Source: Thermomonospora catenispora
GTDB taxonomy: Bacteria; Actinomycetota; Actinomycetes; Streptosporangiales; Streptosporangiaceae
Direction of reading: 5' to 3'
Assembly (NCBI RefSeq): GCF_006363815.1
Contig: NZ_RRYT01000005.1
Location: 124,001-188,000 of the forward strand
Length of the DNA stretch: 64,000 bases
The notes beneath the pieces are model-generated. The model saw only the letters and a program-made list of their open reading frames with translations, was not told the DNA's origin and did not search any database. Numbering within the stretch: the stretch's first letter is position 1; every line of letters begins with the position of its first letter. Shown here piece by piece: positions 4,915 through 61,769 of this stretch. The position numbers were made by a program, and so were the translations under genes.

Positions 4915-6471
4915 TCATCTCAGGCTCACCACCTGCGTCATGCCCTCGTCCTGGATCGACTGGGGGGCGGGCTGACGTGCCTGGTGGCTCATGCGCACCA
5001 GCACGCCGATCAAGATCCAGTTGGCCATCAGGGACGAGCCGCCCTGCGCGAGGAACGGCGTCGTCAGACCGGTGAGCGGGATGAGCCGGGTGACTCCCCC
5101 GACGATCACGAACACCTGCAGTGCCAGCACGAACGACACACCGCCGGCGAACAGCTTCAAGAACGGATCTCGGGCCGCGATGGCGGTCTTCATGCCGCGC
5201 TGCACGATCAGCGCATAGATCAGCAGGATCGCCATCAGCCCGGTCAGGCCGAGCTCCTCGCCCATGGAGTCGAAGATGAAGTCGCTGAACGCCAGCGGGG
5301 TGCGCCACGGTTCGCCCTGGCCCAGCCCCTTGCCCAGCACACCGCCCTCGCCCAGCGCGAACATGCCCTTCATCAGCTGGGCGCTGTCGGCGTAGTCGCC
5401 GCCCATCTTCAGGCAGGCGGTCAGCCCGGACCCGATGGTGTTGCCGGCCTGGATGTAGGGCTCGGTGCCCGGCGCCACCGACACCACCTTGCCGTCGGGC
5501 AGCAGGCAGCCGCCGTCGAAGTAGGGCTCGGGGTTCTGCCAGATGCTCAACCGCTGGTTGACGTGCCCCAGGAACGGCAGCTGGGTGGCCACCAGCACGC
5601 CCAGTGCGAGCATCCCCACGCCGATCAGCACCCAGGAGATCCGCTGCGTGGCGATGTAGAGCATCGACACGAACAGCCCGAAGTACAGCAGCGCGGTGCC
5701 CAGGTCCTTTTGGACGAACAGGATGCCCAGGCCGAACAGCCAGATCACCATGATCGGGCCCAGGTCCCGGGCGCGCGGCAGCGACAGCGGGCCGATCTTC
5801 TTGCCGACCAGCGACATCGCCTGCCGCTTCTTGACCAGATAGCCGGCGAAGAACACCACCAGCAGCAGCTTGGCGAACTCGCCCGGCTGCACCGAGAACG
5901 GGCCGATGAAGATCCACACCCGGGCGCCGTTGATCTCCGCGCCCAGCCCCGGCACGATCGGCAGCAGCAGCAGGATGATCGCGCACGCGCCGAGGGTGTA
6001 CATGTAGCGCTGAAGGATCTTGGAGTCCTTCAGCAGCAGCACCGTCACCGCGAACAGCAGGATGCCGACGAAGGTCCACTGCAGCTGGGTGCCCGCGGAC
6101 GCCAGCCCGGAGGTGACCACCTTCTTGCCGTCCCGGATGGCGTCCTGCACGTCCCGGCTGGTGGACAGGTCCAGCCGGTAGATCATCGCCAGGCCCAGCC
6201 CGTTCAGCGCCGTCGCCAGCGGCAGCAGCAGGGGGTCGGCGTAGGGGGCGAAACGGGCCTGCACGTAGTACGCGGCCCCGGCCAGCACCACCAGACCGCC
6301 GCCGTAGCCGAACAGGCCGGTCGGTATCCGGCCGTCACGGGCCAGACCGACCTCGGCGAAGGCCGCCAAGGTCATCACCATGGCGAAGATCAGCAGCGCC
6401 AGGGATGCGCCCTTGCGCGGCTGAGTCGCCACGGGGACCTGTTCGGGGAGCCGGTCGGGGGGTGAGGTCAT
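4915..6471 (-). CDS. rodA: RodA/FtsW-type SEDS peptidoglycan glycosyltransferase
   Basis: Polytopic SEDS protein of 518 aa that polymerises lipid II in the membrane, working with the class B PBP encoded next. There are at least ten hydrophobic segments and the family signature regions, such as the conserved GEFAKLLLV stretch in mid-protein and the FSDFIFDSMGEELG and GLTTPFLAQGGSS regions near the end. The N-terminus carries a short cytoplasmic tail before the first helix. Its start codon at 6471 overlaps the pstP stop codon by one base, so the two are probably translated in a coupled way. Confidence 0.95.
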   Translation of the reverse strand: MTSPPDRLPEQVPVATQPRKGASLALLIFAMVMTLAAFAEVGLARDGRIPTGLFGYGGGLVVLAGAAYYVQARFAPYADPLLLPLATALNGLGLAMIYRLDLSTSRDVQDAIRDGKKVVTSGLASAGTQLQWTFVGILLFAVTVLLLKDSKILQRYMYTLGACAIILLLLPIVPGLGAEINGARVWIFIGPFSVQPGEFAKLLLVVFFAGYLVKKRQAMSLVGKKIGPLSLPRARDLGPIMVIWLFGLGILFVQKDLGTALLYFGLFVSMLYIATQRISWVLIGVGMLALGVLVATQLPFLGHVNQRLSIWQNPEPYFDGGCLLPDGKVVSVAPGTEPYIQAGNTIGSGLTACLKMGGDYADSAQLMKGMFALGEGGVLGKGLGQGEPWRTPLAFSDFIFDSMGEELGLTGLMAILLIYALIVQRGMKTAIAARDPFLKLFAGGVSFVLALQVFVIVGGVTRLIPLTGLTTPFLAQGGSSLMANWILIGVLVRMSHQARQPAPQSIQDEGMTQVVSLR

Positions 6472-56909: not shown

Positions 56910-56955
56910 CACACCTCCATGGAACCTTGTCGTGCCCGTGCACGTCGAATCCTCC

Positions 56956-57390
56956 ATGGGGTACTGGAGGTCGTTGACCGCCGCGGCGGGCGCGGCCGCG
57001 TTCGCCGCCGTCGTCCTGGGCGGCTGCGGCGCCGAGGACTCCGCGGACGCCCCGCCCGCGAGCGTGTCACCGGCGCCGCGGACCGAGCTGACCGTCGAGG
57101 TCCGCGCCGAGCCCGGGGCGTCGGCCGTCGTGTGGACCCTCACCTGCGATCCCGCCGGCGGCGCCCATCCCGACCCGCAGGCCGCCTGCCGGGCCCTCGC
57201 GGCGGCGGACAAGCCCTTCGAGCCGGTCCCCGCGGGCGCCGTCTGCACCCAGATCCACGGCGGCGACCAGACCGCCAGGGTCACCGGCACCTGGCGCGGC
57301 GCGAGGGTCGACGCCCGCTTCACCCGCTTGAACGGCTGTGAGATCGACCGCTGGCAGCGGGTCGCCCCGCTCTTCGGCCCCACCGGCTGA
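56956..57390 (+). CDS. Subtilisin-inhibitor-like (SSI) lipoprotein
   Basis: 144 aa. Signal peptide ending VVLGGC gives a lipoprotein. Mature domain matches the Streptomyces subtilisin inhibitor fold: LTCDPAGGAHPDPQAACRAL, reactive-loop Cys in VCTQIHGGDQTARVTGTW and the closing LNGCEIDRWQRVAPLF, with four Cys for two disulfides. The residue aligned with the P1 Met of SSI appears to be Gln, so target specificity may differ or be lost. The ATG at 56956 is preferred; an in-frame GTG at 56932 would add 8 residues. Confidence 0.88.
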   Translation: MGYWRSLTAAAGAAAFAAVVLGGCGAEDSADAPPASVSPAPRTELTVEVRAEPGASAVVWTLTCDPAGGAHPDPQAACRALAAADKPFEPVPAGAVCTQIHGGDQTARVTGTWRGARVDARFTRLNGCEIDRWQRVAPLFGPTG

Positions 57391-58197
57391 CCGGGCGATC
57401 ATCGACTCGTCCCGGACCGGTGAGGATCGCGCCCGGCGTTCCGGGTGCGCGGCGCGCCGGGCGGCCGTATCGTGTCGCCGGCCGGCGGCCCCTCCGCCCG
57501 CGGGCGCCCGGCGAGGGGGCGCGCCGCGGGGTCGGCGGGCGTTGTCCACCGTGTCCACGTCCCTGTGGATTGCTGTGGACAAGCCTGTGGATAACTTCGG
57601 AGGCCCGCTGTCCCCCTGTCGTGTGCATATGCATACCTGTGCATATGTCCCGCACGTCTCGGCCCGCCTCCCGCCCCGACATCCCCAGCCCTGTGGATAA
57701 CGGACGCGCAACGGGCCGTGTCGCGCTTGACGATCCGGCCGCGGGCGCGACGACGTGCGGCGGGCGTGAGGCGGGTGCGCCACGGCGCGCGGCGGGCGCG
57801 GGGACGGGGCGCGCGGCGGCGCGGTCGCCCGACCTCCGGGGCGGGCGCGCTCCGAGAGGGTGCGGCGCCGCGATGCGGGCCCCGCGGCGGAGCCGGGTGC
57901 GAGGCGGCGCACGGCGGCCCCTGCCGTGGGCGAGGCCGTGGGGCGGCCGTGCGGAGCCGTGCACGGGGGCGTCGCGCGGGCCGGGCGGCGCGCCGGCTCC
58001 GCCGCCCGGGGGCGGGTTTCGGCCCGGCCGCCGGCGCGGATGGAAGCACCGCCGCCCGCACGGTGTTGCACCCCATGGCGGGTGAAGGGGGCCGTTACCC
58101 CGTCCCGGTATGTGAGCACCTATGATGCAAGTCTCATAAACGGGTAGGGGGTAGGGGTTGCCGGTGAGGCCGCGGTCCTGCAGCATGGAGTGCAACA
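57391..58197 (+). other. Gene-free stretch of about 810 bp upstream of the copper operon
   Basis: No credible gene. The left part holds the DnaA-box-like cluster and TGTGCATATG repeats described separately. From about 57715 to 58040 the plus strand is strongly G-rich (GGCGGGCG-type runs) with no open frame of gene-like composition. The last 150 bases carry G-rich direct repeats (GGGTAGGGGGTAGGGG near 58142) and lead into the operator of copZ. Confidence 0.6.
57542..57700. other. Cluster of DnaA-box-like sequences
   Basis: Exact TTATCCACA boxes (as TGTGGATAA) at 57586-57594 and 57692-57700, exact TTGTCCACA (as TGTGGACAA) at 57574-57582, and near-matches TTGTCCACC at 57542-57550, GTGTCCACG at 57551-57559 and TGTGGATTG at 57564-57572. 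Between them a 10-bp direct repeat TGTGCATATG occurs at 57622-57631 and 57638-57647, the first extended into the palindrome TGCATATGCA. No dnaA or dnaN is nearby. Confidence 0.75.
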
Positions 58198-58212
58198 TAC
58201 CCCCCAGGGGTA
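58198..58212 (+). promoter_or_regulatory. CsoR-like operator upstream of copZ
   Basis: TACCCC-CCA-GGGGTA, a GC-rich inverted repeat typical of copper-sensing CsoR repressors, centred about 25 nt before the copZ start. No csoR gene is in the window. Confidence 0.65.
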
Positions 58213-58229
58213 AATGAGGAGGGTTTCGG

Positions 58230-58436
58230 ATGAGCACGAGCACCTACACCGTCGTCGGGATGACCTGCGGACACTGCGTCGCCTCGGTCAAGGAGGAGGT
58301 CGGCCAGGTGCCCGGCGTGACCGCCGTGGAGGTCGACCTGGACAGCGGGCGGATGACCGTCACCGGCGAGAGCGCCCTCGACGACGCCCGGATCCGGGCC
58401 GCCGTCGAGGAGGCCGGCTATCGCGTGAAGGACTGA
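58230..58436 (+). CDS. copZ: Copper chaperone CopZ (HMA domain)
   Basis: 68-aa heavy-metal-associated domain with GMTCGHC (MxCxxC Cu(I) site), ferredoxin-like fold pattern ending in AVEEAGYRV. It passes Cu(I) to the CopA ATPase encoded two genes on. GAGGAGGGTTTCGG precedes the ATG. First gene of the copper operon. Confidence 0.95.
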   Translation: MSTSTYTVVGMTCGHCVASVKEEVGQVPGVTAVEVDLDSGRMTVTGESALDDARIRAAVEEAGYRVKD

Positions 58437-58442
58437 TCCATC

Positions 58443-59375
58443 GTGAACACCCCGACCAAGCTGGGAGCCTACGTTCTCGGCCTGGCCGTGGTCTTCGCCG
58501 GCGCGCTGGGCGTCGGCCGGCTCGCCGGCCCCCTCGGAGCACAGGGGACGGCCCGCGCCCACGGGCACGAGGCGCGGACCGCCGAGCACCACGACGGCGG
58601 ACCGCCGCTGCCGGGCGGGCTGCAGATCTCACAGAACGGGTACACGCTCGTCCCGCACTCGGATCCGCTCCGCGCGGAGCGGCGAGGCGAGCTCCGCTTC
58701 GCCGTGCACGGGCCGGACGGGCGACCGGTCACCCGGTTCGCCACGATCCACGACAAGCCGCTGCATCTGATCGTCGTCCGCCGCGACCTGCGGAACTACC
58801 GACACCTGCACCCCCGGATGGACTCTCAGGGCACATGGTCCGTCCCGCTCGCGCTGCCCGACCCGGGGCCGTACCGGGTCTTCGCCGACTTCCGGCCGCA
58901 GGAGGCCGCCGAGCAGCTCACCCTCGGCATGGACCTCACCGTGCCCGGCGACTATCGGCCCCAGGAACCGCCCCCGGCGGAGCGGACCGCCACCGTGGAC
59001 GGCTACCGGGTCACCCTGACCGGAGCCCTCGTCCCCGGACGGCCCGGCCGGCTGACCCTGTCGGTGAGCCGGGACGGCGAACCGGTCACCGACCTGGAGC
59101 CCTACCTGGGCGCCTACGGGCATCTGGTGGCGCTGCGCGGCGGCGACCTGGCGTACCTGCACGTCCACCCCGACGGCGGGACCGGGGCCGGCCCGGACAT
59201 CGCCTTCCACGCCGAGGCCCCCGGCGCCGGCGCCTACCGGCTCTACCTGGACTTCAAGCACCGGGGGAAGGTGCGCACCGCCGAGTTCACCGTCGTCGCC
59301 GGACCGGACGCCGCCGCCCCCTCCGCCCGGCCCGCCCCGCCCGACGACGGCCACGACCACGCCCACGGCCACTGA
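58443..59375 (+). CDS. His-rich membrane-anchored copper-operon protein
   Basis: 310 aa. One N-terminal membrane helix (about 8-30), a His-rich linker (HGHEARTAEHHDG), then two related extracellular segments: LHLIVVRRDLRNYRHLHPRM (about 100-120) and GHLVALRGGDLAYLHVHPDG (about 225-245), each an H-hydrophobic-D-L-Y-x-H-x-HP pattern, and a C-terminal DDGHDHAHGH tail. The duplicated motif suggests two beta-domains arisen by repetition that may bind copper outside the membrane. GTG start 6 nt after copZ, hence same transcript. Confidence 0.82.
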   Translation: MNTPTKLGAYVLGLAVVFAGALGVGRLAGPLGAQGTARAHGHEARTAEHHDGGPPLPGGLQISQNGYTLVPHSDPLRAERRGELRFAVHGPDGRPVTRFATIHDKPLHLIVVRRDLRNYRHLHPRMDSQGTWSVPLALPDPGPYRVFADFRPQEAAEQLTLGMDLTVPGDYRPQEPPPAERTATVDGYRVTLTGALVPGRPGRLTLSVSRDGEPVTDLEPYLGAYGHLVALRGGDLAYLHVHPDGGTGAGPDIAFHAEAPGAGAYRLYLDFKHRGKVRTAEFTVVAGPDAAAPSARPAPPDDGHDHAHGH

Positions 59376-59453: not shown

Positions 59454-61769
59454 ATGAGCACCGGCACCGCGTCCGGGCGGATCGAGCTGACGATCGGCGG
59501 GATGACCTGTGCCTCCTGCGCGGCCCGCATCGAACGCAAGCTGAACAGGCTGGACGGCGTGACCGCGACGGTCAACTACGCCACCGAGCGGGCCACCGTC
59601 ACCGTCACCTCCGGGAACGTCACCGTCGAAGACCTGATCGGCACCGTCGAGAAGGCCGGGTACACCGCCGCGCTGCCCGAGCCCCCGGCCGCCGAGACCG
59701 AACCCGACGCCGCACCCGATGAGCTGACCCCGCTGCGGCAGCGGCTGATCGTCTCGATCGCGCTGTCGGTGCCGGTCATCGCGATGGCGATGATCCCGGC
59801 CCTGCAGTTCGACAACTGGCAGTGGCTGTCGCTGACCCTGGCCGCCCCCGTCGTGGCGTACGGCGGATGGCCGTTCCACCGGGCGGCGTGGATCAACCTG
59901 CGGCACGGCGCCGCCACCATGGACACGCTGATCTCCCTGGGCACGCTGGCGGCGTTCGGCTGGTCGCTGTGGGCGCTGTTCTTCGGCGAGGCCGGGACGC
60001 CGGGACTGCGGCACGGCTGGGAGCTCTCCATGACCCGCGGCGACGGGTCGATGAACATCTACCTGGAGGCCGCCGCCGGGGTCACCATGTTCATCCTCGC
60101 CGGCCGTTACTTCGAGGCCCGCTCCAAGCGCCGCGCCGGAGCCGCCCTGCGGGCGCTGCTGGAGCTGGGCGCCAAGGACGTGGCGGTGCTGCGGGACGGC
60201 CGTGAGGAGCGCATCCCCGTCGAGCGGCTCACCGTCGGCGACCGGTTCGTGGTCCGCCCCGGAGAGAAGATCGCCACCGACGGGGTGGTCGAGGAGGGCT
60301 CCTCGGCGGTGGACGCCTCCATGCTGACCGGCGAATCCGTGCCGGTCGAGGTCGGTCCCGGCGACCCCGTCGCGGGCGCCACCGTGAACACCGGCGGGCG
60401 CATGGTCGTCAGGGCCACCCGGGTCGGCTCCGACACCCGGCTGGCGCAGATGGCCCGCCTGGTGGAGGAGGCGCAAAGCGGCAAGGCCCGGGTGCAGCGG
60501 CTGGCCGACCGGATCTCCGGGGTCTTCGTCCCGGTCGTGATCGCGCTGGCGGTGGCGACCCTGGGGTTCTGGCTGGGGAGCGGCGCGGGCGCGGCGGCGG
60601 CGTTCACCGCGGCCGTGGCGGTGCTGATCATCGCCTGCCCGTGCGCGCTGGGCCTGGCCACCCCCACCGCGCTGATGGTCGGCGCGGGCCGGGGCGCCCA
60701 GCTCGGCATCCTCATCAAGGGCCCGGAGGCGCTGGAGGGCGCCCGCGCGATCGACACCGTGGTGCTGGACAAGACCGGCACCGTCACCACCGGCACGATG
60801 AGCCTGGTCGAGGTGTTCACCGCCGACGGGGTGACGGTCGAGGAGGCGCTGCGGCTGGCGGGAGCGCTGGAGGACGCCTCCGAGCACCCCATCGCGCGGG
60901 CCGTCGCCCAGGGCGCCCGCGAACGGGTGGGCGGACTGCCGGCCGTGACGGACTTCGCCGCCCTCGAAGGGCTGGGCGTGCAGGGGACCGTGGACGGACG
61001 CGAGGTGCTGGTCGGCCGCCCGAGCCTGCTGGAGGAGCGGTCCTGGGGGTTGCCGCCCTCCCTGCGGCGGGCCCTGGAGGAGGCCCGGTCCCACGGGCAC
61101 ACCGCGGTCGCGGTCGGCTGGGACGGGGCGGCCCGGGCGGTGCTCACGGTCGCCGACCGGGTCAAGCCGACCTCCGCCGAGGCCGTCGCCCGGCTTCGGG
61201 AGCTGGGCCTGCGGCCGGTGCTGCTGACCGGCGACAACGCCGCGGTCGCCCGTGCGGTGGCGGCCGAGGTCGGCATCGACCCCGAGTCGGACGACGTGAT
61301 CGCCGAGGTGCTGCCCGCCGACAAGGTGCAGGTGATCAAGCGCCTGCAGGCCGAGGGGCGCACCGTGGCGATGGTCGGGGACGGGATCAACGACGCCGCC
61401 GCGCTGGCCCAGGCCGACCTGGGCCTGGCCATGGGCACCGGCACCGATGCGGCCATCGAGGCCTCCGACCTGACCCTGGTGCGCGGCGACCTGCGGGCGG
61501 CGGCCGACGCCATCCGCCTGTCGCGCCGGACGCTGGCCACCATCAAGGGCAATCTGTTCTGGGCGTTCGCCTACAACGTCGCCGCTCTGCCGCTGGCCGC
61601 CGCGGGCCTGCTCAACCCGATGATCGCGGGTGGCGCGATGGCGTTCTCCTCGGTGTTCGTGGTGGCCAACAGCCTCCGCCTGCGCCGTTTCACGCCGCTG
61701 ACCGCCGACGTCCCGCGGCGGCCGGCGCCGGCCGCGGCCCCGGAGAAGGCCGCCGCCACCGCCCCCTGA
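59454..61769 (+). CDS. copA: Cu(I)-exporting P1B-type ATPase CopA
   Basis: 771 aa. One N-terminal HMA domain with GMTCASC, two leading helices, TGES actuator loop, CPC ion site ([13 protein letters not shown]), phosphorylation motif [14 protein letters not shown] (the P1B His-Pro pair), GDGIND hinge, and the C-terminal helices with YN ([12 protein letters not shown]) and [15 protein letters not shown], all residues expected for Cu(I) specificity. It exports cytoplasmic copper. Preceded by CACAGGAGGGACG-type ribosome site. Confidence 0.96.

Follow-up and report, generated by a model that had tools for sequence, protein, structure and literature searches.

The limits on replication initiation are less well known in actinobacteria than in Escherichia coli. 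Smulczyk-Krawczyszyn et al. reportedly described an oriC-proximal DnaA-box cluster in Streptomyces coelicolor in 2006, naming it "D78", and Okumura et al. are said to have described oriC-proximal DnaA-box clusters in Bacillus subtilis in 2012. Passages of two reviews portray the S. coelicolor and B. subtilis clusters as repressing untimely initiation (PMC5742627, PMC4585315). The same excerpts of the second review present E. coli datA as an oriC-proximal site with boxes on both sides of a spacer whose spacing is important, and report that spacer distances are conserved in the E. coli DARS sites (PMC4585315). According to an excerpt on mycobacteria, DnaA binds five regions, two of which lack an obvious counterpart elsewhere; the sites at Rv0010c-Rv0011c (~13.6 kb in the genome) and Rv3843c-RVnc0040 are outside oriC and described there as unsettled in role, and DnaA also binds upstream of dnaB (PMC7738170). 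Our literature searches found nothing on DnaA boxes in Actinomadura or Thermomonospora; for DnaA-box clusters in actinobacteria the only match concerns Epsilonproteobacteria, and for D78 with DnaA nothing was relevant by title among the matches listed.

We analysed a 64,000-nucleotide stretch of the Thermomonospora catenispora genome, referred to here as the window, in which a preliminary description had pointed to a cluster of DnaA boxes next to a copper operon. The cluster is flanked by a gene for a subtilisin-inhibitor-like (SSI) protein and by the first of the copper genes. Its parts and neighbours are as follows, in window coordinates.

56932-57390, plus strand: SSI-like protein gene, flanking the cluster
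57542-57550, plus strand: additional near-match TTGTCCACC, outside the conserved architecture
57551-57559, plus strand: inverted box E, near-match GTGTCCACG
57564-57572, minus strand: box D, near-match CAATCCACA with the conserved TCCACA core, starting 10 bp past the start of box C
57574-57582, minus strand: DnaA box C, TTGTCCACA, starting 12 bp past the start of box B
57586-57594, minus strand: DnaA box B, TTATCCACA, by direct sequence reading
57595-57691, minus strand: spacer of 97 bp between boxes A and B
57622-57631 and 57638-57647: two copies of TGTGCATATG flanking the central motif
57633-57637, minus strand: GGTAT, the central motif of the spacer, with its start 43 bp ahead of box B
57692-57700, minus strand: DnaA box A, TTATCCACA, by direct sequence reading
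58230-58436, plus strand: CopZ-like HMA protein gene (copZ), first copper gene, flanking the cluster
58443-59375: second copper-cluster gene, with a 310-aa product without a Pfam or NCBIfam match
59454-61769: P-type ATPase gene

Direct reading of the sequence confirmed the three exact boxes and three near-matches of the preliminary description, and its gene-free interval measures 839 bp (57391-58229) if the SSI-like ORF is taken to end at 57390 and copZ to start at 58230. The 10-bp direct repeat TGTGCATATG that it had noticed among the boxes is present as well; among the rows compared, this repeat/palindrome is partly common to one close relative only (G120), and GGTAT is the more widely conserved feature of the region. 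The plus strand does turn G-rich on the right (GC skew of about +0.13 to +0.19 and GC of 0.84-0.88 in 200-bp windows over 57700-58099), a feature to which we give no role. Beyond the SSI-like gene, the window carries a rhodanese gene and a PAS histidine kinase gene.

The cluster is genuine, exceeds chance by a wide margin and is conserved. A genome-wide count of exact TTRTCCACA, a check named beforehand, gave 26 sites in the 5,346,804-bp assembly (109 contigs), and the 215-kb contig that holds both the window and dnaA (C54, 4.0% of bases) has nine of them (binomial P = 4.5e-7). With sites placed at random, the expected number of triplets as tight as that of the window is 4e-6 to 7e-6. The preliminary description had named similar clusters at many loci as evidence that would count against it; in this genome the 26 exact sites form only two groups of three within 200 bp, and both of these are on the contig with dnaA. 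Its claim of an excess beyond chance is upheld by the clustering statistics, and the whole-window count is less striking: with one mismatch allowed there are 7 TTATNCACA matches against a mean of 2.85 in dinucleotide shuffles, and 5 of 100 shuffles reach 7. Since this count is only mildly above the shuffles, the strength of the case rests in clustering. A chance cluster without function would suit the mild excess, but the minute expected number of triplets and a spacing that is fixed across several genera make that reading extremely improbable. At one mismatch or fewer, C54 has 49 sites, and its densest 500-bp box groups are these.

C54 start 92232: 8 sites
C54 start 75358: 7 sites, in the dnaA-dnaN interval
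C54 start 181542: 4 sites, the window cluster
C54 start 18926: 4 sites, upstream of dnaB

Relatives share one rigid layout, in which box A is followed by a spacer, by boxes B, C and D at 12- and 10-bp steps, and by the inverted box E. Across 38 distinct elements, found with a spacer of 92-104 bp allowed, the spacer measures 97 bp in 10, 98 bp in 21, 99 bp in 5 and 100 bp in 2. In 35 of the 38, the starts of boxes C and D lie 12 and 22 bp past that of box B, and in 32 box E (TGTGGA) starts 35 bp past the start of box B; the window, with CGTGGA as its box E core, is not among the 32. GGTAT starts 43-44 bp before box B in 25 elements and is absent from the spacer in 10. The patterns used for relatives require an exact box A, so its invariance there is by construction. 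Among 36 non-redundant rows, the boxes carry ~1.5-2.2 bits of information per column, the central motif ~1.1 bits, and the other spacer columns mostly 0.1-0.8 bits.

A wider re-scan that allowed 40-220 bp returned 53 pairs of box A with boxes C-D, one of which is the oriC of another genome (G199), leaving 52. The A-to-C distance is 117-121 bp in 48 of these and off the mode in L083 (88 bp), L066 (110 bp), L104 (110 bp) and L043 (131 bp, G075). Box positions give distances of 109 bp for L081 and 108 bp for L087, where the re-scan missed the D box. Relative to 119.5 bp, these six shifts correspond to -3.0, -0.9, -0.9, +1.1, -1.0 and -1.1 turns of 10.5 bp, respectively. Because the variants are shifted by near-whole helical turns, they hint at looping, with box A and the array in helical phase, in a post hoc comparison of six variants related by descent. 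In 20 of the scanned loci no exact box A plus C-D was found; among them are reduced versions, loci from outside the group and two fetches of flanks alone. A subset that includes A. madurae (L063, L069, L075, L077, L078, L091) keeps boxes C-D-E and lacks an exact box A at the typical spacing.

The element was found in Thermomonospora, Actinomadura and Actinocorallia relatives. A strict pattern, TTATCCACAN{92,104}TTRTSCACAN{6,8}TCCACA, was searched in 341 genomes of the family and matched once each in 35, while the reversed pattern, used as a control in the same genomes, gave 0 matches. The match in G199 is an oriC beside dnaA and dnaN and was taken out of the counts. The other 34 matches fall in 5 of 5 genomes of the window's genus, 26 of 65 of genus g38, 2 of 3 of g17 and 1 of 2 of g49; the remaining 39 of the 65 g38 genomes fail a pattern that misses degenerate boxes. 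Gene neighbourhoods of the 34 were read for the part that coincides with the examined loci. In a sample of the class, 7 of 394 genomes match the strict pattern, 4 of 41 within the family and 3 of 353 outside it. Two of these three outside matches adjoin dnaA, and the third (L182) lies in a 3.1-kb locus without a match to DnaA or DnaN. A search of the order gave 0 matches in the 4 genomes outside the family, the other 293 of 297 belonging to the same family.

A DNA similarity search of 150 family genomes gave a match in 84. The loci read besides the window's own were L017-L021, L031, L041 and L043, and the genomes kept were G120, G098, G067, G140, G103, G016 and G075. One further genome (G060) was dropped: although it has boxes, neither the A-B geometry nor shared genes were found. 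In L022-L030, L032-L040, L042, L044 and L045 the similarity falls mostly at query positions outside the boxes.

The usual site of the element in relatives is between divergent copZ and a gene for an Fpg-like glycosylase (fpg), which in G120, G098 and G067 lies between the SSI gene and the cluster. The best NCBIfam scores of the Fpg-like protein, 158 and 153 bits, are under the curated cut-offs of 212 and 203. Named genomes were also scanned with an alignment of four of these Fpg-like proteins. Of 499 confirmed relatives the best 80 were kept, which biases the sample toward similar, fpg-bearing loci. In 42 of 47 loci from Actinomadura, Spirillospora, Thermomonospora and metagenome-assembled genomes (L058-L104, with one strain counted twice as L068 and L071), at least two boxes with one mismatch or fewer lie within 450 bp upstream of fpg. 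Of the remaining five, L103 lacks a group, and L079, L081, L082 and L092 carry three or four boxes at other places in the locus. The other 33 loci (L105-L137, from Actinocorallia, Actinoallomurus, Streptomyces, Kitasatospora, Kribbella and others) have one box at most; one of them, L105, is from the strain of G075, whose array sits ~16 kb from fpg. A regular expression finds the full geometry in 33 of the 47 loci, C-D-E alone in 9 and neither in 5, against 0 of the 33. Given these 9 and 5 loci and the 39 failures in g38, the full architecture is not indispensable.

An alternative reading is that DnaA would regulate transcription of the divergent Fpg-like gene, of the copZ operon or of both, and so couple DNA repair or copper handling with the replication cycle. 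In most of the 47 loci the space between copZ and fpg is taken up by the element. Relatives that have fpg show a conserved GATAC immediately ahead of its ATG, and box E stands ~16 alignment columns upstream of this GATAC, a placement expected of a site that regulates the promoter; according to part of a published account, DnaA regulates promoters in other bacteria (PMC8203912). However, the array also occurs where these genes were not found alongside. No fpg was found beside the element in the window or in G140, no cop genes in the element's locus in G103, L100, L102 and L104, and neither in G016, whose 13-kb locus (L052) nonetheless keeps the array next to the SSI gene. The best Fpg-family matches of the window genome are on other contigs and reach 106.6 and 47.4 bits, so the fpg ortholog is taken as lost. 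The array lies 530 bp from copZ in the window, and in some species it is apart from fpg (0.7-5 kb away and closer to copZ in L079, L081, L082 and L092) or inverted (between copZ and fpg in Actinomadura fibrosa, L066 9676-9804). In addition, the 450 bp upstream of the genes for Fpg relatives in Streptomyces, Kitasatospora and Kribbella (240 bp for L119) are free of boxes, even with one mismatch allowed. The INDEPENDENCE from neighbours, seen in arrays that persist without fpg, without cop genes or without either, weighs most heavily against a simple promoter site, and we consider a transcription-factor role unlikely. The earlier suggestion of DnaA control of neighbouring promoters keeps some force for relatives whose box E closely precedes the fpg start; the window element, however, has no fpg next to it. 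A promoter role for the copper operon was rejected: no sigma-70-like promoter or terminator site was found in 57380-58300, and arrays occur without adjacent cop genes. As a separate observation, GTCTCATAAACGGGTAGGGGGTAGGGG upstream of copZ (window 58131-58157) is identical in G140 (L181) and is probably part of the control region of the copper genes.

The cluster had been placed far from dnaA and dnaN, which holds within the window but not on the scale of the contig: C54 holds the only Bac_DnaA_C match of the assembly, and the element is ~107 kb from dnaA and 106 kb from the dnaA-dnaN interval with its boxes. Because nine of the 26 exact sites and dnaA share the contig of the cluster, we regard it as an oriC satellite and not as a stray cluster. 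In 15 genomes with both on one contig, the element lies 40-191 kb from dnaA: at 107 (window), 191, 120, 93, 40, 79, 50, 79, 79, 106 and 67 kb on the dnaA-downstream side (in C54, the dnaN side) and at 134, 122, 60 and 57 kb on the opposite side. Three of the 17 handles in this count repeated genomes already counted, and G067, G279, G283 and G319 fall outside it, with element and dnaA on separate contigs. Provided that the named record of each is contig C1, L074 (full element) and L063 (reduced) would add distances of ~123 and ~154 kb. General synteny around oriC accounts for part of this closeness to oriC.

That the cluster is not an ordinary oriC, as originally noted, agrees with the distance to dnaA and with base composition, the lowest 40-bp GC being 0.45 in the gene-free interval versus 0.375 at oriC (the dnaA-dnaN interval). 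A second or relic replication origin had also been raised, and a box cluster in a non-coding interval with GC below its surroundings (0.616 versus 0.764 for the entire gene-free interval) would suit one. That option is nevertheless very improbable, given the boxed dnaA-dnaN interval 106 kb off, the lack of a comparably AT-rich stretch, a fixed geometry of the element's own that is conserved in several genera, and no dnaA, dnaN or repA noticed alongside.

The persistence of the element without fpg, copper genes or both, and its nearness to dnaA, speak more for an autonomous DnaA-binding element than for a promoter site or a second origin. Our main reading, drawn from comparative sequence analysis, is that it is a conserved, autonomous oriC-satellite DnaA-binding element with a role like that of datA or the Streptomyces cluster, with a probability of about 0.6. 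Among the three options originally offered, a datA-like DnaA reservoir is the best supported, as the element is conserved, oriC-proximal and tied to neither neighbour gene; its function is inferred. It resembles the clusters of Streptomyces and Bacillus in that several boxes are clustered in non-coding DNA outside oriC and close to it (107 kb from dnaA in the window genome). The S. coelicolor cluster is, moreover, an actinobacterial one, and the B. subtilis clusters, like it, repress untimely initiation according to the reviews. By analogy, the element probably helps to keep chromosome copying in check.

The oriC-satellite element resembles E. coli datA in having boxes that flank a spacer and in its oriC-proximal position. 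One difference is that datA needs an IHF site between its boxes 2 and 3, and the central motif here is GGTAT. The IHF consensus WATCAANNNNTTR was found on either strand in 0 of 38 spacers, so the element is not datA proper; another bending protein may act at GGTAT. We know of no DARS in actinobacteria. A DARS-like site, which would reload DnaA with ATP and promote initiation, might likewise have several close boxes, one of them inverted, at conserved spacing, as the spacer distances of E. coli DARS are conserved. However, from the portion of the review that deals with these sites (PMC4585315), an oriC-proximal position would suit a datA-type dosage effect better, and a DARS-like role appears quite unlikely.

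The copZ-fpg site is a different place from that of the comparable Streptomyces cluster. Streptomyces sp. MJM8645 has a three-box cluster, possibly D78, between serS and pheA orthologs, ~132 kb from an oriC-like box group; its further box groups are near the ortholog of C54:120447-121352, upstream of dnaB, and in a dense group taken as oriC. Neighbourhood and box spacing both differ from those of the window element. Positional homology between the two was rejected: in the window, serS and pheA are 28 kb from the element, with no boxes between them. The mycobacterial sites Rv0010c-Rv0011c and Rv3843c-RVnc0040 are also outside oriC, in yet other neighbourhoods. Judged from the sequences of few genomes, satellite sites seem to turn over while the distal one recurs near 100 kb.

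A mechanism for the oriC-satellite element can be proposed by analogy. DnaA would fill boxes B-E cooperatively and would contact DnaA on box A across the spacer; the A-to-B start distance is usually 106-109 bp, about ten helical turns, and a protein at the central motif could aid the contact. Excerpts of one source report dimers of actinomycete DnaA domain I and mention that long-distance contacts have been proposed between DnaA molecules on distant boxes, which would suit such a loop (PMC13270200). Copied soon after initiation, the element would double early and thereby titrate DnaA or promote loss of its ATP form, and premature re-initiation would be restrained, as with E. coli datA and the Streptomyces and Bacillus clusters. 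A more specific and tentative version would be a bridged DnaA switch, in which box A and array B-E, whole helical turns apart (usually ten, with variants that differ by about one or three), are looped by domain I dimers around a GGTAT-bound protein and form an inactivation site that replaces the IHF-dependent datA. Actinobacterial lineages might then have re-established satellites ~100 kb from oriC at unrelated places, such as copZ-fpg here and serS-pheA in Streptomyces. The fixed box spacing and central motif, present in many species of one group, make the element a concrete target for dosage and looping models, and its full, reduced, inverted and phase-shifted versions among relatives provide a natural comparison.

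Other box groups in the window genome correspond to 3 of the 5 mycobacterial regions listed in the excerpt cited above (PMC7738170), namely dnaA-dnaN, just upstream of dnaA (the putative rpmH side) and upstream of dnaB. The putative crgA region, recognised by eye at C54 ~121.7-122.3 kb, has no box at one mismatch or fewer. A cluster denser than that of the window lies at C54:92232-92530 (L003 8233-8531), ~18 kb from dnaA, with 8 sites at one mismatch or fewer, 3 of them exact; it adjoins genes for a HemK-like methyltransferase and a DUF418/YeiB-like protein and has a counterpart in G120 (L178, site starts 5767-6058). The dnaB-upstream group (C54:18926-19002, L010) has TGTGCATA sequence between its boxes, and Streptomyces (L173) and Actinocorallia (L180) have similar groups ahead of their dnaB genes. 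In L180 (8431-11958, G103) the dnaB ortholog matches in separate blocks, which suggests an intein or insertion.
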